Assembly: GCA_030651575.1 (NCBI GenBank)
Contig: JAUSFB010000044.1
Span: 186,001-250,000 of the forward strand
DNA from: Phaeospirillum sp.
GTDB taxonomy: Bacteria; Pseudomonadota; Alphaproteobacteria; Rhodospirillales; Magnetospirillaceae
DNA length: 64,000 nt
Reading direction: 5' to 3'
Under the pieces are notes generated by a model. The model searched no databases. It saw only the letters and a program-made list of their open reading frames with translations, and was not told where the DNA came from. A program made the position numbers and the translations under genes. Positions 1-7,926 of this stretch are shown piece after piece; position 1 is the stretch's first letter, and every line of letters starts with the position of its first letter.

Positions 1-413
1 CCAGCTACCGAATAAGCCGCCGCAACCAGTTCGGAGCAAAAATGCTTTCTGCCGGCTTTGGCGAGCCACGGCGCCTTTGTTGCAATTGCGCCACGCATGT
101 CGTACCCGGAGAAAGCCCAGCGCCTTGGCGCTTCGGTAATAACATCAATTTGCGTTCGGCTGAGTAAGTCTGATGGAAGACGCCAGACCTCGAAATCGCG
201 AGGATACTTGGTGACGATGCGGGCCGTTGGGAAAATTATTACACCGCCACTCACAGCTTCCGCTAACTGTCCGTTGCCAATGTACAAGATTGCATGGGAA
301 AATTTGCCATCAAACGCCTTAACAACGGCACTCGCCTTCTCCCGGCCGTTTTCAAGAATGACGTCTCCAGGAAAAAGCTCGCGCTCGTCAAGCTGATACC
401 ACTGTTCAACCAT
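1..413 (-). CDS. Partial YiiX/YaeF-like permuted papain-fold hydrolase (5' part only)
   Basis: An open frame runs from an ATG at 413 off the left edge, giving 137 residues. It is preceded by a purine-rich GGGGGGAG ribosome site. The protein has the layout of the permuted NlpC/P60 (YaeF/YiiX) cysteine hydrolases: GDVIL near residue 16, FSHAILYIG with the candidate catalytic His40, a following Glu52, and FCSELVAAAY with the candidate nucleophile Cys126. The His-before-Cys order is typical of the permuted fold. No signal peptide is visible. The stretch is less GC-rich than the genes to its right, and it lies beyond tnsC. It could therefore be transposon cargo or an old chromosomal gene beside the element. 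The family is fairly sure; the substrate is unknown. Confidence 0.7.
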   Translation of the reverse strand, partial: MVEQWYQLDERELFPGDVILENGREKASAVVKAFDGKFSHAILYIGNGQLAEAVSGGVIIFPTARIVTKYPRDFEVWRLPSDLLSRTQIDVITEAPRRWAFSGYDMRGAIATKAPWLAKAGRKHFCSELVAAAYSVA

Positions 414-582
414 ACTCCCCCCTATCGTCTCACTTGGCATTCGACGAATTGATTCCCGACAATCCACAGCTAAGGCCGCTGCGTTCAACTTCGCTACCGC
501 AGCCCCTTTCGCTCCGGCGCGAGAAGAGCATAAAGCGGGGTTATCTGGTAGTATGAGAGCCAGAGAACTCGCGACATACCTC

Positions 583-1482
583 TTACCTTGCCGCCCGTCT
601 CCTCTCACTCGGCATCGTCCATGGCACCTGATCCAGCGTGCCCATGTCGATAATCTCTCGGCCGGAGTGAATTGACGTCTCAGCGGCGAGAGCCAACAGT
701 TTGCAGGTCTCCCCGGTCAGGCCTTCCGACATGGCGTGGATGCGTCCGATCAGTTCCTTGGAGCGGAAGTCACTCTCCTGCCTCAGCTCCAGACTCTGGG
801 CGTAGCGCGCCACGAACAGGGCGTACTCCCGGCTAACGCTCCAGCGCGGGATGCCGATCGGCTCGAAGCGGTTCCCCAGTTGCTGGTCGGTCTGGAAGAC
901 CCGGACCGCATCCTGAGTGCCCATGGCCACCACGGGAATCTTCAGCTCGTTGCTGAGGCTCTTCAGGCTGTTCAGCACCATGGAGCGCTGATCGACCTTG
1001 CCGATGAGGAAGTTGCTGACCTCGTCGAGGATCAGCACTCGGGTGCCGACGGCGGCCAATAGCTGGAGCAATTGATCCCATTTGGCCTGGGGCCGGGCCG
1101 TCGAACGATAGGGGGCGCCCAGCGATCGCAGGATCGCGTCGTAGAGGCCGCTGATATCGGCATAGGGTGGGGCATGGGCATAAACCACAGGGCGCTTGCC
1201 GAAGTCGGGGCTGTCCTCCGCCGGGCTGTGATCGCGGACGAACTTCTGCGCCAAAGCCGTCTTGCCGTTGTTAGTGTCGCTGTAGATCAGGCTGCATGGC
1301 GGTCGGACCACCTTGGGGTGGTCATAGAGCCAGGCGAGGCGGCCAAGGATCGCTTCGCCCGCCTCGTACGCGACGTAGCGGGGGCTGCGAATGCGGCGGA
1401 TGCGGCCCTCAAGTTCCTCCTGGGGGAAGTCTAGCGGCAACATGGGCGCCGGATTCAGCGCGAACAGATCGGGCGTCACCAT
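583..1482 (-). CDS. tnsC: TnsC/TniB-type AAA+ transposition regulator
   Basis: A 299-residue AAA+ ATPase of the TniB/TnsC family, which links target-site proteins to the transposase. The Walker A motif is SDTNNGKT at residues 68-75, the NNGKT form usual in TniB. Walker B is VLILDE at about 149-154. The length is close to TniB and much shorter than Tn7 TnsC, so C-terminal TnsA/TnsB-contact extensions may be absent. The ATG at 1482 follows GAGGGGGG and overlaps the end of tnsB by 7 bp, indicating translational coupling. It is the last gene of the tniQ-tnsA-tnsB-tnsC unit. Confidence 0.88.
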   Translation of the reverse strand: MVTPDLFALNPAPMLPLDFPQEELEGRIRRIRSPRYVAYEAGEAILGRLAWLYDHPKVVRPPCSLIYSDTNNGKTALAQKFVRDHSPAEDSPDFGKRPVVYAHAPPYADISGLYDAILRSLGAPYRSTARPQAKWDQLLQLLAAVGTRVLILDEVSNFLIGKVDQRSMVLNSLKSLSNELKIPVVAMGTQDAVRVFQTDQQLGNRFEPIGIPRWSVSREYALFVARYAQSLELRQESDFRSKELIGRIHAMSEGLTGETCKLLALAAETSIHSGREIIDMGTLDQVPWTMPSERRRAAR

Positions 1483-3422
1483 TCTTCTACCCCCCTCTTG
1501 ATCTCGGCATCGTCAAAATCGAAATCGTTGGATGTCGGCCTGGGCTTCGGCGGATCGGCTGCCTGGTTGTCGACCACCAGGGCTAGATGACCGTCGCGCC
1601 GCCGCGTGGCCTTGGGCTTCGCCGGCGTTTCCGGTGGTGGGCGCGGCGGATCCAGGGTCAATTCCGCGCGGTGCTTGCCGAGTTCCCGCTTCTTGGCCTG
1701 TTCGCGGCGAGCACGCTTGGTCTTGCGGGCCGCCTCGGTGGTGATGCGGTGCATGTCCTCATAGGCGTCGAAGATCGCCTGTTCGTTCTCCGCGGCCTTG
1801 CCCTGGCGGCGCAGCCAAGTCTCGACCGCCCGATATTCCCACAGCGAGATCGATGGCCGGCCGATGTCGCGGTAGGGAATCTCGACATAGTCGCTGAGCC
1901 TCGGATCGAGGAAGTAGAGCTTGGAGATGTCGGTCGGATCGCGGCGGACCTTGAACTTTCGCCTGCGCCGGCCTTCGTCGGCCCGAACCCACTGGGACAG
2001 CAGCGGATCGCGGTACCAAATCTTGTCCCAGACGATGCCTTCCGGTTGCACCGTGCGCTCGATGAAAGGCAGAAAGTCCAGGCGCAGCCGTCGAGGATTG
2101 GGGATGGGCTCGGGCAGGCCGATGCCCCGAAACCGGTCCGTGCCCATGATGCCGTCGTTCCACCGTGCCAGGGGAGGACAGCCGATCCCGCTGTGGACCT
2201 TGTTGTGGTAGACGCCGACGATGAGGTTCAGTAGCCAGGGGCGCAGGTCCCGCAGCGTCATCTGGGCCTTGGCCTCGGACTTGTATTCGCCGCGTTGCTT
2301 AGGGTTGGAGAAGGTGGCACCGGGAAGGGCATGGACCTTCCTCGCCAGGGTTCCGGCCAGGCGCTCGATATGGCCGCCGTAATGGGGCGTCTTCGGTGGG
2401 CGGAATTCGTAGCGGATATCGTGCTCGTCCAGCGTGTCCTGGATCAGGTAGCTGCGGAAATCCTTGCCGTTGTCGGAATGGATCATGCGGGGCTTCCCCC
2501 AGACCGGCCACTCGCCTTTGACGCCCAGCCGTTCCAGCTCGGCGGCCTTGTCTAGCATCCCGTGACACAGGCAGAGGCCGACGGCGAACGCGCCGGGATT
2601 GTCGAGCGAGATGTGGTAGCCCACCACCATGCGACTGAAGACGTCGATGGCCAGGGTCAGCCACGGACGTCCGATGGGCAGGCGCATCTCCTCGTCGAGC
2701 ACCATGATGTCGAGCAGGGTGTGATCGATCTGCACGACGGAAAGCGGCGCGTCCGCCCCAGGAAAATTGCCCTTCACCGCGCCGAACTTGTCGTGGGCGG
2801 CCTTCTTGCCCTCGCGCCGCAGCACCTTTTCCTTGGGGTCGATGGCCCGCAGCCTGGCACGAACCGTTTCGGCGCAAGGCTTCGACAGATTGACCGCCCG
2901 GCAACGGCGATGAACCTCCAGGATGACCTCCTCGCCGTTGGCCTTCTGCGTGGAGAGGTACTTTCCGTCGATGACGCTGGTGATGATCGCCTCAACCTCG
3001 GGCGACAGGCGTTTGGGCATCTTGCGGCCACGGCGTGAGGGGGCGAGGTCAGTCAGGCGCCGACGGCCTTCGTACCGCTTGATCCAGCGATACAGCGTCG
3101 CCCGTGGCACGCCATGTCGTTCGGCGGCTCGCTGGACATCCTCTTCGCTTCGACGCTCACAACGCACCAACGGCTTGATGATGGCGAAGCGCCGCCTGGC
3201 CTCGGCCAAGTCCTCGGGAGCCAATGCGTCCAAGCTGCGGTCGGCCTGCGCAGACTCGATATCCTTGAGCGATCGCAGCTTGGAGACGGGCACCACTTCC
3301 TTGTCCTGACCATCCCCGGCGTCGAGCAGGACCGAGGATGCCGTCACCGCCTCGACGATGGTGCAGCGCTTGCCGCGCCAGAGAACCGACGCACCGGGCT
3401 GAAAGCTGAATCCATTGCTCAT
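1476..3422 (-). CDS. tnsB: TnsB/TniA-type DDE transposase
   Basis: A 648-residue retroviral-integrase-fold transposase. An N-terminal helix-turn-helix region is visible around residues 70-120 (VPRATLYRWIKRYEGR). The catalytic triad is apparent as D233 (QIDHTLLD), D317 (HSDNGKDF) and E353 (GGHIERLAG), a DD35E spacing. A Mu-type beta-barrel region follows, then a basic tail. In Tn7 relatives TnsB binds the transposon ends and makes the 3' breaks and strand transfers. The ATG at 3422 overlaps the tnsA stop (ATGA) and follows GGAGA. All catalytic residues are present, so it appears intact. Confidence 0.92.
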   Translation of the reverse strand: MSNGFSFQPGASVLWRGKRCTIVEAVTASSVLLDAGDGQDKEVVPVSKLRSLKDIESAQADRSLDALAPEDLAEARRRFAIIKPLVRCERRSEEDVQRAAERHGVPRATLYRWIKRYEGRRRLTDLAPSRRGRKMPKRLSPEVEAIITSVIDGKYLSTQKANGEEVILEVHRRCRAVNLSKPCAETVRARLRAIDPKEKVLRREGKKAAHDKFGAVKGNFPGADAPLSVVQIDHTLLDIMVLDEEMRLPIGRPWLTLAIDVFSRMVVGYHISLDNPGAFAVGLCLCHGMLDKAAELERLGVKGEWPVWGKPRMIHSDNGKDFRSYLIQDTLDEHDIRYEFRPPKTPHYGGHIERLAGTLARKVHALPGATFSNPKQRGEYKSEAKAQMTLRDLRPWLLNLIVGVYHNKVHSGIGCPPLARWNDGIMGTDRFRGIGLPEPIPNPRRLRLDFLPFIERTVQPEGIVWDKIWYRDPLLSQWVRADEGRRRRKFKVRRDPTDISKLYFLDPRLSDYVEIPYRDIGRPSISLWEYRAVETWLRRQGKAAENEQAIFDAYEDMHRITTEAARKTKRARREQAKKRELGKHRAELTLDPPRPPPETPAKPKATRRRDGHLALVVDNQAADPPKPRPTSNDFDFDDAEIKRGVEEW

Positions 3423-4081
3423 GGCCGCTTCTCCTTTGCCAGTGCGACAAGGGTGGTGCTCATGGTCAGGGGACGATCCAGGTCCACGGCCACCTCGAAC
3501 TCCGCCACCATGGTCCAGATGCCGGGCAGAACCTCCGGACGGCTCAAGCCCAGTGCCGCTGCCACCTCATCGGCGAGCGACGCGACATTCTTCTGGCCGC
3601 CTTTTCGCAAGGCCGCGCGCAAGCCGTCCCTCAAACCGGCGGCATTGGAGCGACCTCGGAACGGCAGCAGGAAGGTGGCGTTCTCCAGCCGGGGAGCGCG
3701 GATCTCCAACTCGGTCACCACCTGGAAACGCCAGCCCTGACGTCGGGCATAGGCGCGGGCGGCGGCAAAGCGGCCTTCCAGTTGTCCGGACACCAGCATG
3801 GGGTCGGTGGAGTATTTGATCTCGACAAGGCGCGGTACCGGCCGACCGCCGCGATAGGTCACCAGGAAGTCGGGCACGTAGGAGCGGGCACGACCGTCAG
3901 CATCGTCGTATTCGATCCGCACCGGCTGCTCCTCGACGGTAGCCACGGAGCGATCGAAGCGGCAGAGCAGCGCGAAATCCCGCTCCAGGGTGGATTCCAC
4001 CTGGATGCCGGGCCGCCCCTTTCCCATGGGCACCCGTCCGCTGACACTGCGATAACAAAGACCGATCTTGCGTACAGGCAT
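3419..4081 (-). CDS. tnsA: TnsA-type endonuclease subunit of the heteromeric transposase
   Basis: A 220-residue restriction-endonuclease-fold protein with the TnsA signature: E33 in STLERDF, D71 in YVPDFLV and E87-I-K89 in LVEIKYS. These match the catalytic E-D-(E/Q)xK core that cuts the 5' strands at transposon ends. A longer frame exists upstream, but the ATG at 4081 is preceded by TGGGGGAC and starts 13 bp after the tniQ stop, so this start is preferred. The stop overlaps the tnsB start. The presence of TnsA separates this element from Tn5053-like replicative elements that lack it. Confidence 0.85.
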   Translation of the reverse strand: MPVRKIGLCYRSVSGRVPMGKGRPGIQVESTLERDFALLCRFDRSVATVEEQPVRIEYDDADGRARSYVPDFLVTYRGGRPVPRLVEIKYSTDPMLVSGQLEGRFAAARAYARRQGWRFQVVTELEIRAPRLENATFLLPFRGRSNAAGLRDGLRAALRKGGQKNVASLADEVAAALGLSRPEVLPGIWTMVAEFEVAVDLDRPLTMSTTLVALAKEKRP

Positions 4082-4094
4082 CGAGTGTCCCCCA

Positions 4095-5441
4095 TCACTC
4101 TTCACAACCAACGTTAGCGTCGGGCGTGATTGTGTCGGGATCATGACGATCAAAAGGTGTTTTGGCGGCGCTGAGCCCAAGCGTCCGGCGAAGCAGGGCA
4201 TCCAGCCATGGCCCCACGTCTTCGCCGGCACTATGTGCGGCCCGACGGGCGGCGGCCTTTACCTCGGGCGAGACGCCATCCAGCTTCCAGTACCGTCCCT
4301 TGCCCCAGGGCAGGCCAGAGGCCACGGGCTCGGCCACTCCGCCCATGGAGCCCAGCTTAGTTCCGCACAGGGCGACCAGGTTCCGATGGCTGGCCGACTG
4401 GCCATGACCGTGGAGTATCTGGGCCGCCGCCGATATCTCTTCCGTGGCGTCGCCCTTGTGCGGCTCCTTCAAGTGCCAGTCCACCGCGTGAGCATAGGCG
4501 AAGGGATACTCGCCCACAGGGCGCTTGCGCAGATCAGTGCTGGTCATGCCCACTGCCTTGGCGGCCTCGACGAAGCGATGCGGCCAGTCGGCCAGCAGCC
4601 AGTGCGCCATGGCGACCAGAACGCCTCGAGCGCGCGGGGTCAACAGGGCGCCATCCCGGGCACGGGGAACGGTTTCGGGCCTCACCGACAGGTCTGCCTG
4701 ATGCTCAGCGATCCAGGTTCTGAGTGCGTAGGCGTGCTTGCCGCCGGCGAGAAGGCGGGAGATCAGTGCCAGAATCTCGAGCACCGCGAAGGAATAGACC
4801 GGGCCATAATCGCCGAGGACTCGCCATCCCTCCCGGATCAGGTCCAGCAGATTGCGTTGCACCAAGATCGTGTCAAAAGCCGCTTCATCCCCGGTGAAGT
4901 CGCGGAGATCGGCACCACAGCCCAGACAGCAGATGGTGCCCCGCCCGTCCTGGCGCAGGATGCTGAACGGCTCGGCGCAGATCGGGCAACGGTCCAGCAG
5001 CAGGCGGCCATGGATCGGACAGGTAGTGAAGAAGGAAAGCCGCCAATTGAGGCGCAAGTACGGCTGCGTATCGGCCCGCAGGCACCAGGGGCAGACCTGT
5101 TGGCCGAAACAGCGCCGCCCGCCCTCGCGCCCGGCCGGTGGCAACCAGGCCAGTTTGTTGAGACCATCGTCATGCTCGAACAACCGTCCAGACCAACGGC
5201 GGAAGGTGGAGAGCTTCAGGTCTTCGACAGGGAGTCCCGTCTTGCCCGCCAGCAGGTTCAGCAGGCAGTCGTCGGCATGGCGGTCGAAATCGCGGGGATT
5301 ACGGTCCCCGCCGGGCTGGATGATGCGGTAAAGCTCACCCGGCCGCAGGCCATTGGCGGCGGCGGTTCGGGTAAACCACGAAGACACAGACTCATCGGGC
5401 AACAGCCTGGGATGCCCTGGCCAGCGATCATCGTTGCGCAT
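4095..5441 (-). CDS. tniQ: TniQ/TnsD-family target-selection protein
   Basis: A 448-residue TniQ-family protein. The N-terminal PDESVSSWFTRTA motif is typical, and zinc-binding clusters follow: C117-x2-C120 with C141-x2-H144, then C152-x2-C155 with C172-x2-C175. In Tn7, TnsD is the TniQ protein that recognises a fixed attachment site and recruits TnsC. Here tniQ is the first gene and lies closest to tRNA-Gln, so a tRNA-directed site choice is a reasonable inference. A TTG five codons upstream is possible, but the ATG at 5441 has GGAGG 8 bp ahead and is chosen. Confidence 0.87.
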   Translation of the reverse strand: MRNDDRWPGHPRLLPDESVSSWFTRTAAANGLRPGELYRIIQPGGDRNPRDFDRHADDCLLNLLAGKTGLPVEDLKLSTFRRWSGRLFEHDDGLNKLAWLPPAGREGGRRCFGQQVCPWCLRADTQPYLRLNWRLSFFTTCPIHGRLLLDRCPICAEPFSILRQDGRGTICCLGCGADLRDFTGDEAAFDTILVQRNLLDLIREGWRVLGDYGPVYSFAVLEILALISRLLAGGKHAYALRTWIAEHQADLSVRPETVPRARDGALLTPRARGVLVAMAHWLLADWPHRFVEAAKAVGMTSTDLRKRPVGEYPFAYAHAVDWHLKEPHKGDATEEISAAAQILHGHGQSASHRNLVALCGTKLGSMGGVAEPVASGLPWGKGRYWKLDGVSPEVKAAARRAAHSAGEDVGPWLDALLRRTLGLSAAKTPFDRHDPDTITPDANVGCEE

Positions 5442-5543
5442 CGGCCCAGCCTCCAACCGAAGTGGAGGCCGAAAATCATAGCGCGATTGGCGACCGAGAG
5501 GTGCAGGGCAGAGGACTCATCGGGCTGCGCAGAGGCTTGCGTT

Positions 5544-5613
5544 TCCCTTGATCGAAGGGAGCAGCCTATAGACGAGACGAATCCGAAAATTCCGCTTGGT
5601 TTCGGGATTCGTC
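5544..5613. repeat. Two dyad symmetries upstream of tniQ
   Basis: Two inverted repeats lie 100-170 bp ahead of the tniQ start. One pairs TCCCTT at 5544-5549 with AAGGGA at 5555-5560. The other pairs GACGAATCC-GAAA at 5576-5588 with TTTCGGGATTCGTC at 5600-5613, with one base unpaired. They could be operator sites for the transposition genes, extra TnsB sites or hairpins. The sequence alone does not decide. Confidence 0.5.
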
Positions 5614-5705
5614 ATCGCGTCACCAAATGGCTCCATTCAGGATGCCGCTGAGGCTGCAACCATCTGATTTTACGCAAGTTTCTGCCAAGGACAGAACCCG
5701 AATCC

Positions 5706-5768
5706 ATCCCGCATAAAGCTGGGGCTGTCTCAGATAAAGCCTATGGAATCCCGATTAAAGGCGGAACC
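5706..5768 (-). repeat. Three 21-bp-spaced TnsB-like sites at the transposon end
   Basis: The + strand has ATCCCGCATAAAG at 5706-5718, a weaker GTCTCAGATAAAG at 5727-5739 and ATCCCGATTAAAG at 5748-5760. The spacing is exactly 21 bp each time, in the same orientation. The first and third agree at 11 of 13 positions; the middle one shares mainly the TAAAG core. Regular sites of about 20-22 bp beside a terminus are what TnsB arrays look like in Tn7 relatives. The assignment is inferred. Confidence 0.55.
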
Positions 5769-5801
5769 GACAGTGAGCTTGCTACATAATGCCGAAAAAG
5801 T

Positions 5802-5875
5802 TGGTTGGGGGACTAGGATTCGAACCTAGACTGGCGGAGTCAGAGTCCGCTGTCCTACCGTTAGACGATCCCCCA
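5802..5875 (-). tRNA. tRNA-Gln (anticodon CUG)
   Basis: A complete cloverleaf reads on the - strand from 5875 to 5802. The acceptor arm TGGGGGA pairs with TCCCCCA, the anticodon arm is GCGGA-CTCTGAC-TCCGC with anticodon CTG, the T loop is GGTTCGAATCC, and CCA is encoded at the 3' end. The gene is intact although a Tn7-like module starts about 30 bp beyond its 3' end, so insertion there would not harm it. Confidence 0.96.
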
Positions 5876-6124
5876 CCAGTCTGGCTGGCGGCTTGGTTTT
5901 CCCAGCGGGGTTGCCGCGAGAGGCGCACCTTCTAACACAGCCGTTCGGTCGGATCAATGCCCAAAGCGGGCGATTCTTATTCAGGAGAGAATGGCGAAAA
6001 GGGGGCTGTTCGGCGAGGTGGTGGGAGACCGGGCTTCCCACTGCCCGGTAATCCGGAGTAACATCCGGTGCCTTGGATCACTGCGTGTTGTGCCGTGACC
6101 GGGTTTCGGTTGAGTTTGGTTTTT

Positions 6125-7111
6125 ATGCACACTGTTCCGCTGTACGCCGCGCTTGATCTCGGCACCAACAACTGCCGCATGCTGGTGGCGCGTCCGACCG
6201 CGCGCGGATTTCGGGTGATCGACGCTTTTTCCCGCGTCACCCGGCTGGGTGAGGGTCTGGGGGCCAGCGGTCGCCTGTCCGAGGTGGCGATGGAGCGCAC
6301 CCTGGACGCCCTGGAGGCGTGTGTCATCAAGTTGGAGCGCAATCAAGTCGGCCGCGCCCGTCTGGTTGCCACCGAGGCCTGCCGCCGCGCGGTCAACGGC
6401 CAGGAGTTCACCGCCCGTATTACCAAGCGGACCGGACTGGTTCCCGACATCATTTCTCCGGTCGAGGAGGCGGGGCTGGCCTTGGCCGGCTGTGCCTCGC
6501 TGCTGGATCCCAACATTCCCTGGGCGCTGGTTTTCGACATTGGCGGCGGCTCGACGGAATTGGTCTGGGTGCGCAACTCTGCCGCCGGTCAGACCGTGAT
6601 GGGGGTGCAGTCCATTCCCGCCGGCGTGGTGACTCTGGCCGAGCAATGGGCCGGGGAACTGGGGTGCGGTGTCGGCTACGCCAAAGTGGTCGAGCAGATC
6701 GGCAACGCTTTTCGCCCGTTTGAAAGCCTGCACACCATCTCTTCGCTGATGGGCGGCAGCATGGTGCAGATGCTGGGCACTTCGGGCACGGTAACGACGC
6801 TGGGGGCCTTACATCTGGGGCTGGAGCGTTACGAGCGGTCGCAGGTGGATGGGTTGGATCTGAGCTTTAGCGATATTGCCGCCGTCACCAGCCGTCTGGC
6901 CGCCATGAGCGCCGACGAACGTGCGGCTCATCCCTGCATCGGTTCCGAGCGGGCCGACCTGGTACTGGCGGGATGCGCCATTCTAGAGGCAGTGTGCCGG
7001 CTGTGGCCGCTGGGACGGCTGAGGGTCGCCGACCGCGGTGTGCGCGAGGGTGTGTTGCTGGGCATGATGCGCGACGATGCGCGGGCCGGTGAGGCGGAGC
7101 GGGCATCGTGA
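6125..7111 (+). CDS. Ppx/GppA-family exopolyphosphatase-like phosphatase
   Basis: A 328-residue actin/hexokinase-fold phosphatase. The phosphate-1 loop is YAALDLGTNNCRMLV near the N terminus, and phosphate-2 is VFDIGGGSTELVWV in the middle. It is the short form lacking the C-terminal HD-like domain of E. coli Ppx, common in alphaproteobacteria. The family hydrolyses polyphosphate or pppGpp; the substrate here is not known. The ATG at 6125 is chosen because the conserved region starts just after it; the upstream ATG adds an unconserved stretch. No strong ribosome site is seen. It is followed by rlmE, a common alphaproteobacterial pairing, with a repeat copy between. Confidence 0.85.
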   Translation: MHTVPLYAALDLGTNNCRMLVARPTARGFRVIDAFSRVTRLGEGLGASGRLSEVAMERTLDALEACVIKLERNQVGRARLVATEACRRAVNGQEFTARITKRTGLVPDIISPVEEAGLALAGCASLLDPNIPWALVFDIGGGSTELVWVRNSAAGQTVMGVQSIPAGVVTLAEQWAGELGCGVGYAKVVEQIGNAFRPFESLHTISSLMGGSMVQMLGTSGTVTTLGALHLGLERYERSQVDGLDLSFSDIAAVTSRLAAMSADERAAHPCIGSERADLVLAGCAILEAVCRLWPLGRLRVADRGVREGVLLGMMRDDARAGEAERAS

Positions 7112-7119
7112 GCGAAGCT

Positions 7120-7142
7120 TGCGCCCGCCCGGCGTTTGAGGG
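7120..7142 (+). repeat. Dispersed repeat, copy 1 (23-bp core)
   Basis: The core TGCGCCCGCCCGGCG followed by TTTGAGGG starts 8 bp after the ppx stop codon. It differs at one base from the core of two 30-bp copies after cobS at 40826-40848 and 40930-40952. It lies between two same-strand genes. Confidence 0.7.
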
Positions 7143-7151
7143 TTATGAATA

Positions 7152-7910
7152 ATGAGCGGTATCGGAAAGAAAAAAAGCGGCGGCGGCAACAGGACGACCG
7201 GATCGGTTCCGGGCACCTCGCGCGAGATGACCGTCAAGGTCAAGACCGCCAAACGGCGCAAGCTGTCCTCGACCCTGTGGCTACAGCGTCAGCTTAACGA
7301 TCCCTATGTGCATGAGGCCAAGCGTCAGGGTTTTCGCTCGCGCGCCGCCTTCAAGCTGATCCAGTTGGACGAACGCTTTAATATCCTCAGGCCCGGCCTG
7401 CGGGTGGTGGATCTGGGCGCCGCTCCTGGTGGTTGGACCCAGGTGGCGGTTCAAAAGGTCGGCGGCTTCGGCAAGAAAGGCAGCGCCGTGGTCGGCATGG
7501 ACATCCTGGAATGGGATCCGGTCGCCGGCGCGATCACCCTTCAGGGTGATTTTCTCGCCGACGACGCGCCCGACCGGCTCAAGGAGGCCCTGGGCGGCCC
7601 CGCCGATGTGGTGCTGTCGGATATGGCGGCGCCGACCACCGGCCATCCCTCTACCGACCACCTGCGTATCATCGGCCTGGTCGAGGTGGCGCTGCACTTC
7701 GCGCTGGAGATTTTGACCCCCGGCGGCACCTTCGTGGCCAAGGTATTTCAGGGCGGTACTGAAAAGACCCTTCTCGACCTGTTGAAGAAAAACTTCACCA
7801 GCGTGCGGCACGCCAAACCACCGGCCAGCCGCCAGGGTTCAGCCGAGACCTACGTCGTCGCCATGGGCTTTCGGGGCGAGCGTCCGGAAGACGCCCCGGA
7901 CGCCGAATAA
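7152..7910 (+). CDS. rlmE: 23S rRNA 2'-O-ribose methyltransferase RlmE (FtsJ)
   Basis: A 252-residue Rossmann-fold methyltransferase that modifies U2552 in the A loop of 23S rRNA. The SAM motif is VVDLGAAPGGWTQVA. The K-D-K-E catalytic tetrad is recognisable in SRAAFKL, VVLSDMAAP, FVAKVFQGG and AETYVVAMG. A lysine/arginine-rich N-terminal extension of about 40 residues precedes the conserved WLQRQLNDPYV start, as in other alphaproteobacteria. It follows the ppx-like gene by 40 bp, so co-transcription is likely. It converges on the next gene, with only 16 bp between the stops. Confidence 0.93.
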   Translation: MSGIGKKKSGGGNRTTGSVPGTSREMTVKVKTAKRRKLSSTLWLQRQLNDPYVHEAKRQGFRSRAAFKLIQLDERFNILRPGLRVVDLGAAPGGWTQVAVQKVGGFGKKGSAVVGMDILEWDPVAGAITLQGDFLADDAPDRLKEALGGPADVVLSDMAAPTTGHPSTDHLRIIGLVEVALHFALEILTPGGTFVAKVFQGGTEKTLLDLLKKNFTSVRHAKPPASRQGSAETYVVAMGFRGERPEDAPDAE

Positions 7911-7926
7911 GGCCCCGCCCCCAGGG

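Follow-up and report, generated by a model that had tools for sequence, protein, structure and literature searches.

A Tn7-like transposon at a fixed distance behind tRNA-Gln in a Phaeospirillum genome, with TniQ as the probable reader of the tRNA gene

The window, a stretch of 64,000 nt from Phaeospirillum sp. (assembly GCA_030651575.1, contig JAUSFB010000044.1, positions 186,001 to 250,000; G000:C20:186001-250000 in our numbering), begins within a Tn7-like element of 26,779 bp (C20:164994-191772), the right 5,772 bp of which lie inside it and end 29 bp behind a tRNA-Gln gene. The original prediction, made from the window alone, held that a complete TniQ, TnsA, TnsB and TnsC set follows an intact tRNA-Gln gene, and that TniQ reads this gene as an attachment (att) site. 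Pfam searches and ARAGORN recovered the four genes and the intact tRNA, which is the only tRNA in the window. The features are as follows.

583..1482, minus strand: tnsC, 299 aa, TniB-type AAA+ ATPase (Pfam TniB PF05621, E 2e-68)
1476..3422, minus strand: tnsB, 648 aa, DDE transposase (Pfam Mu_C; rve slightly below cut-off)
3419..4081, minus strand: tnsA, PD-ExK endonuclease (PF08722 and PF08721, N and C domains; PseTnsAB alignment; motifs)
4095..5456, minus strand: tniQ, 453 aa (Pfam TniQ PF06527, E 3e-31; sequence matches to TniQ/TnsD in the PDB)
5457..5772, minus strand: element right end, with terminal TGTCGGTT at 5772 and adjoining repeats of ~20 bp, candidate TnsB sites
1..5772, minus strand: in-window part of the 26,779-bp element, whose left end and most of the cargo lie at C20:164994-186000
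5773..5801, minus strand: spacer of 29 bp between the tRNA 3' end and the element, from the sequence
5802..5875, minus strand: tRNA-Gln(CTG) with encoded CCA, intact, the proposed attachment gene (ARAGORN; last 45 nt compared with other CTG targets)

Counted away from the tRNA on one strand, the order is tniQ (5456-4095), tnsA, tnsB (3422-1476) and tnsC (1482-583), so that, as predicted, tniQ comes first and nearest to the tRNA, unlike the order familiar from Tn7. Reading of the motifs also confirmed the catalytic residues that had been proposed: TnsA carries an E...PD...ExK set at residues 79, 120 and 136, and TnsB carries the DDE-type motifs QIDHT (231), SDNGKD (316) and HIERLAG (351). A Walker A-like stretch is present in TnsC. 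Among PDB sequences, TnsB matches the TnsB proteins of Tn6677 and Tn7, TnsA matches PseTnsAB, and the TniQ profile matches both TniQ and TnsD. The open frame of tnsA (3419-4231) extends to a GTG at 4231, but because this codon sits inside tniQ the start is probably the ATG at 4081. The tnsA and tnsB genes overlap and are separate, not fused as in the I-B2/I-D branch of CRISPR-associated transposons (CASTs). The element therefore has the DDE transposase, TnsC ATPase and TniQ-family selector that define Tn7-like systems, and its TnsA, judging from the catalytic motif, would supply the endonuclease of the cut-and-paste type.

The right end terminates in TGTCGG at 5772, 29 bp behind the CCA of the tRNA, and belongs to an end subtype also seen in G039B and G046. 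The far end, which the original prediction had left to be sought, was located beyond the window at C20:164994; CTCAC/GTGAG flanks both ends as a perfect 5-bp duplication, the copy in the window being the last 5 bp of the spacer (CTCAC, 5773-5777). TGT...ACA ends, repeated putative TnsB-type sites and a 5-bp duplication are hallmarks of Tn7-like elements, and this is probably a cut-and-paste transposon of that kind. Its G+C content is 58.8%, against 65.4% in window positions 5802-64000. Twelve near-clade right ends were tested for an exactly matching left end with a 5-bp duplication, and four had one: the window element (26,779 bp, CTCAC), G043 (3,953 bp, CTCAC; with a truncated tnsB and nothing matching tnsC), G037 (11,392 bp, TTAGC) and G039A (9,410 bp, CTTCT). 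The window element is presumed to be still active. Directly after the left end in G037 and in G039 comes a second right end, indicating tandem insertion at one site (G037:C68:62166 and G039:C1:4134726-4134731, two elements per att site). The two right ends of the G037 tandem share one subtype, an unexpected arrangement if target immunity is at work.

The position behind tRNA-Gln recurs across the genus sample of 17 genomes, source genome included. Ten near-clade ends adjoin tRNA-Gln sequence, every one separated from the tRNA 3' end by 27-29 bp. Five of these follow an intact tRNA-Gln(CTG) gene (window, G043, G032, G024 and G046), one an intact tRNA-Gln(TTG) gene (G009), and four a 45-bp 3' part of tRNA-Gln (G037, G039A, G041 and G049); no intact tniQ accompanies the end in G024, G041, G046 and G049. 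Because some of the ten had been found via the tRNA, the 17 genomes were also searched with the two end subtypes as queries, not conditioned on a tRNA. This search returned nine ends (six of one subtype and three of the other), of which seven lie directly 27-29 bp behind tRNA-Gln sequence and two (G037B and G039B) in tandem behind another copy. By rough arithmetic, nine randomly placed ends would be expected to yield ~4e-5 cases that are correctly oriented and no more than 40 bp behind a single tRNA gene. The seven non-redundant spacers have no constant column, counted from either side (modal base in 2-6 of 7), while the CTG target genes are identical over their last 45 nt save at one position. 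The argument that the 45-bp partial copies prove 45 bp to be sufficient was rejected, as a later integrase island would leave the same picture.

In the window, the spacer from 5794 downward (5773-5794) belongs to a different mobile element, whose end bears what looks like a 23-bp terminal inverted repeat, GGTGAGCTTGCTACATAATGCCG, and starts 7-8 bp behind the tRNA in G000, G043, G041, G045 and G024 (L128 and L099 are among the loci). The insertion point of the Tn7-like element thus lies inside the end of this other element, and G045 has a copy (93% over 1.18 kb) that shows this point in uninterrupted form, with a single occurrence of the 5 bp. This uninterrupted copy is not beside the tRNA-Gln gene, whereas the other copy in G045 (C208) is. 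Against the refuting outcome named beforehand, an empty site that would place the element end away from the tRNA, stands the 29-bp distance of the right end. Two 23-bp-repeat ends stand head to head in G045. The tRNA and its chromosomal neighbours (window 5660-7920) were matched in 17 of 17 genomes, in some of them through the protein genes only, with the tRNA on another contig, and several congeners (for example G048, G034 and G044) have the full tRNA-Gln gene with no transposon end behind it.

Across the wider family, near clade included, 18 long-TniQ loci of at least 34% identity were counted, with L010, L011 and L012, which resemble G037, G028 and G032, each counted once. In thirteen of the 18 a tRNA gene, or the 3' part of one, precedes the end at a distance of 27-36 bp: at Gln(CTG) in the window, G043, G037, G039A, G032 and G180; at Gln(TTG) in G009, Azospirillum L135 and L136 (a 17-bp part) and G818; and at Ser(GGA) in G347, G802 and G803. 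The spacing in the more distant kin is 28-36 bp behind tRNA-Gln or tRNA-Ser(GGA), and in sister TniQ lineages the gene recognised is apparently that of the TTG isoacceptor or of tRNA-Ser(GGA). The expectation that related elements sit beside tRNA-Gln accordingly holds for the genus, where it accounts for 9 of 9 ends, two of them in tandem, and holds less strictly for the wider family, in which three are at tRNA-Ser(GGA) and one (G158) is at no tRNA. Among the remaining loci, G039B is in tandem, and in G028 the contig ends before the element does. The 17-bp tRNA copy in L136 is best read as the trace of a later integrase island. As exact left ends were not found for the distant elements, their right ends were called from the TGTC terminus and its repeats. 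The backbone of the TniQ tree is not resolved, and the direction of target switching can therefore not be read from it; the nearest named relative is the TniQ of Paramagnetospirillum kuznetsovii. Matches at E 1e-20 occur in 6 of 385 genomes of a class sample and 7 of 398 of a phylum sample (G000 counted in both), which suggests that the long-TniQ family is rare.

The TniQ domain occupies residues 13-153 of the window protein. Eight Cys/His (Zn-type) residues are invariant across 15 aligned long TniQs, as are residues in a C-terminal stretch around RYWKLDG...GENVGPWV, and the C-terminal extension of the window protein includes a motif (residues 388-426) resembling the ribbon-helix-helix (RHH) fold. 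Assignment of this motif to RHH was rejected, since Pfam gave no match for the window segments, and it is kept as a weak lead; an NCBIfam YlcI/YnfO match fell below cut-off in one of two relatives tried. Because the short TniQs (335 aa) of a second Tn7-like family in the genus, which is not at tRNA genes, are missing most of the extension region, a role of the extension in reading the tRNA gene would fit these comparisons, which do not prove it. This second family (G000:C79:149293-158406, L006, with kin L085 and L086) has its own att site, distinct from tRNA-Gln: in three of three members a conserved 25-nt intergenic motif, AATTCGGTAAGTCTTTGCATATTTG, precedes the element end by 27-30 bp; in G000 the motif adjoins a gene of the metallo-beta-lactamase fold, and the target-site duplication is CGGAC.

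What the sequence shows, namely the ends, the 5-bp duplications of four elements, a constant spacing and orientation, a spacer that varies, and recurrence, is as a whole best explained by TniQ-selected insertion 27-29 bp behind the tRNA-Gln gene, to which we assign a probability of roughly 0.88. By analogy with TnsD, TniQ would bind the 3' part of the tRNA gene as DNA, with a footprint of perhaps the last ~36-45 nt and contact through the C-terminal extension. TnsC may then span the gap from the bound TniQ to the insertion point, as proposed by analogy with TnsD at glmS, and TnsC with TnsAB would place the insertion 27-29 bp behind the gene, so oriented that tniQ is at the end nearer the tRNA; 5 bp of target would be duplicated, and the tRNA gene would stay whole. 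Reading of the tRNA gene by TniQ, as originally predicted, fits best because the spacer varies, the tRNA gene is constant and no guide RNA was found; contact by TniQ itself is the presumed step.

Several observations weigh against this reading. An exact left end was not found for 8 of the 12 near-clade ends (G039B, G037B, G032, G024, G009, G049, G041 and G046), for which the available sequence is often short, nor was an exact left end with duplication found in G180, L135, L136, G818, G347, G802, G803 and G263. The G263 end is 65 bp from tRNA-Ser. The G006 end is 33 bp behind tRNA-Gln(TTG) with the operon at the far end; a search of 33 kb gave no second end, and its orientation was set aside as ambiguous. 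The G158 TniQ (35-37% identity) shares the C-terminal stretch, and no tRNA lies beside its element end. The likeness to RHH proteins is weak, the best RHH match being VapB30 (PDB) at E 0.27. With 453 aa, TniQ falls between short TniQ and long TnsD, and there may be a partner selector.

Such a partner is at the centre of one alternative, in which TniQ is an adaptor and the tRNA is read by another element protein or by a host protein on tRNA genes, as with TnsF/comM and Tn6022. TniQs of middle size belong to a class of proteins hard to assign as direct binders (Faure et al., PMC10293859; papers are cited here from the parts of their text available), and the cargo of the window element includes genes that match no family. 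However, the gene adjoining tnsC resembles a permuted papain-like amidase (below the Pfam cut-off), and the C-terminal extension is common to the 15 long TniQs and mostly missing in the short ones not at tRNA genes; we regard an adaptor role as improbable. Guidance by RNA, through a delocalised spacer directed against the tRNA gene, is how V-K CASTs use tRNA att sites (PMC11406308), but appears hardly credible here. Pfam and PADLOC scans of 10 cargo open reading frames (ORFs; the small ones only partly covered) found no cas effector, although a WYL regulator matched a CRISPR-associated model, and no CRISPR-like array was found in L004 (20.0 of 26.8 kb). The longest match between tRNA and element was 12 nt, against 10-13 in 20 shuffles, or 14 nt with flanks, against 11-14, and so never exceeded the shuffles. 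Within the scanned parts, the element thus lacks the Cas effector and guide RNA by which a CAST is recognised, and a fixed distance behind the tRNA with no guide found would fit direction by protein.

The same tRNA-Gln is an integration site of tyrosine-integrase islands, and the tns genes might accordingly be passengers of an island inserted at a tRNA hot spot. Copies of the tRNA-Gln 3' part, 44-48 bp long, were found in 8 of 17 genomes (G034, G037, G038, G039, G041, G042, G044 and G049), with tyrosine integrase genes (PF00589) behind the tRNA in both genomes checked, G039 and G037 (L078:13935-15407 and L081:9488-10915 are integrases beside tRNA-Gln). In four of the eight (G037, G039, G041 and G049) a Tn7-like end stands behind the partial copy. 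The intact gene lies ~21, 16 and 16 kb off in G037, G039 and G049 and on another contig in G041, and no transposon end was found behind it there. Yet TGT-type ends and 5-bp duplications outside the tRNA coincide exactly with the tns-bearing unit in four elements, and 5 of the 10 near-clade ends are right behind an intact CTG gene and one behind an intact TTG gene. The passenger reading was rejected from the element ends and is contradicted for the window element; in general we give it next to no weight. Recognition of downstream DNA, either the spacer or local structure, could draw on the one spacer element common to 4 of 10 near-clade sites (window, G043, G041 and G024), but the seven non-redundant spacers share no constant position from either side, which makes this very unlikely.

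Tentatively, and as a conjecture we hold to be possible rather than probable, TniQ selection of tRNA genes may be extended to the whole family: a CRISPR-free TniQ lineage with tRNA genes as standard sites, which has switched among tRNA-Gln(CTG), tRNA-Gln(TTG) and tRNA-Ser(GGA) via a C-terminal extension with an RHH-like motif. In magnetospirilla, each island insertion would restore a clean tRNA and spacer and shift the old element by 16-21 kb, reopening the site. If so, natural TniQ variants could show how a TniQ reads DNA. Two glutamine isoacceptors and a serine tRNA in one family offer natural pairs for mapping parts of TniQ to bases, a mapping useful for targeted insertion.

Tn5053/Tn402-type tniABQ elements combine a TniB-type ATPase with TniQ, as does the window element, and to our knowledge lack TnsA. 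Their targets are plasmid resolution sites (PMC11406308), whereas the window element has TnsA and a tRNA site and so falls outside that family. Tn7 itself inserts in one orientation ~20 bp downstream of the glmS stop codon, irrespective of the spacer (PMC2918618); it shares with the window element TnsABC plus a selector, the 5-bp duplication and oriented insertion, and differs in its target, since the site here is tRNA-Gln rather than glmS, and in that the window element has tniQ before tnsA and a TniB-type TnsC. The closest likeness in targeting is to I-B2/I-D CASTs (PmcCAST, with tRNA-Val in its pTarget, CyCAST and McCAST), in which TnsD homes to tRNA genes (PMC11406308), in CyCAST 30-33 nt behind tRNA-Leu (PMC10293859), a comparable distance. 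In those systems TnsA and TnsB are fused, and Cascade and a second small TniQ are present (PMC11406308), in contrast to the separate TnsA and TnsB, the one TniQ encoded first, and the absence of detected Cas genes in this alphaproteobacterial element.

Homing of TniQ/TnsD to tRNA genes is thus already known, notably from I-B2 and I-D CASTs, and novelty is limited because repeated recruitment of different tRNA genes as att sites, with TnsD and TniQ among the routes, is already stated for Tn7-like elements at large (PMC11406308). As far as searched, three things are new: the use of tRNA-Gln as a site; an alphaproteobacterial family that is CRISPR-free, places tniQ first and has separate TnsA and TnsB with a TniB-type TnsC; and Gln and Ser sites inside one TniQ family. 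Protein-directed tRNA homing, with CASTs as the worked examples in the available literature, would thereby extend to a simple four-gene system with a mid-sized TniQ. Literature searches for Tn7-like elements with tRNA-Gln and for Magnetospirillum with TniQ found no paper, and a broader search found no description of the family in titles or abstract openings among the matches listed. Benler et al. 2021 describe Tn7-like elements with defence cargo and list "downstream of tRNAs" among safe sites (PMC8649781); the cargo is alike, and the available part of that paper does not give a tRNA-Gln family or the tRNA spacing.

Cargo ORFs of the window element match Gabija (gajA and gajB), dGTPase, a WYL regulator and JetD in Pfam or PADLOC. 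The element keeps this defence cargo (Gabija, dGTPase, Wadjet-like) at a safe site that integrase islands use as well. The JetD match (Pfam JetD_C above cut-off; PADLOC E 1e-14) is a 396-aa protein whose gene adjoins three others, of 1582, 265 and 507 aa, for which neither Pfam nor PADLOC gave a match under the limits applied. This Wadjet-like set (L004:5900-14119) is possibly a divergent Wadjet type.

Excluded from the counts were seven distant TniQ matches with no tRNA found in the 13-16 kb around them (G317, G630, G669, G710, G751, G785 and G787), G022, G026 (a broken locus on a small contig), three short C79-type TniQs and other short weak matches. Plasmids gave 289 records with a TniQ match, of which the two covering at least 80% were examined, and a phage collection gave two weak matches. 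A TniQ fragment elsewhere in the G039 chromosome (L041, G039:C1:3104360-3104611; 44% over 84 aa) was likewise left out of the counts. The G022 locus (L087:6531-9217) is a distant Tn5053-like tnsB-tnsC-tniQ set, with a TniQ of ~31% identity, that ends ~1 kb from tRNA-Gln(TTG) in the opposite orientation and gene order.

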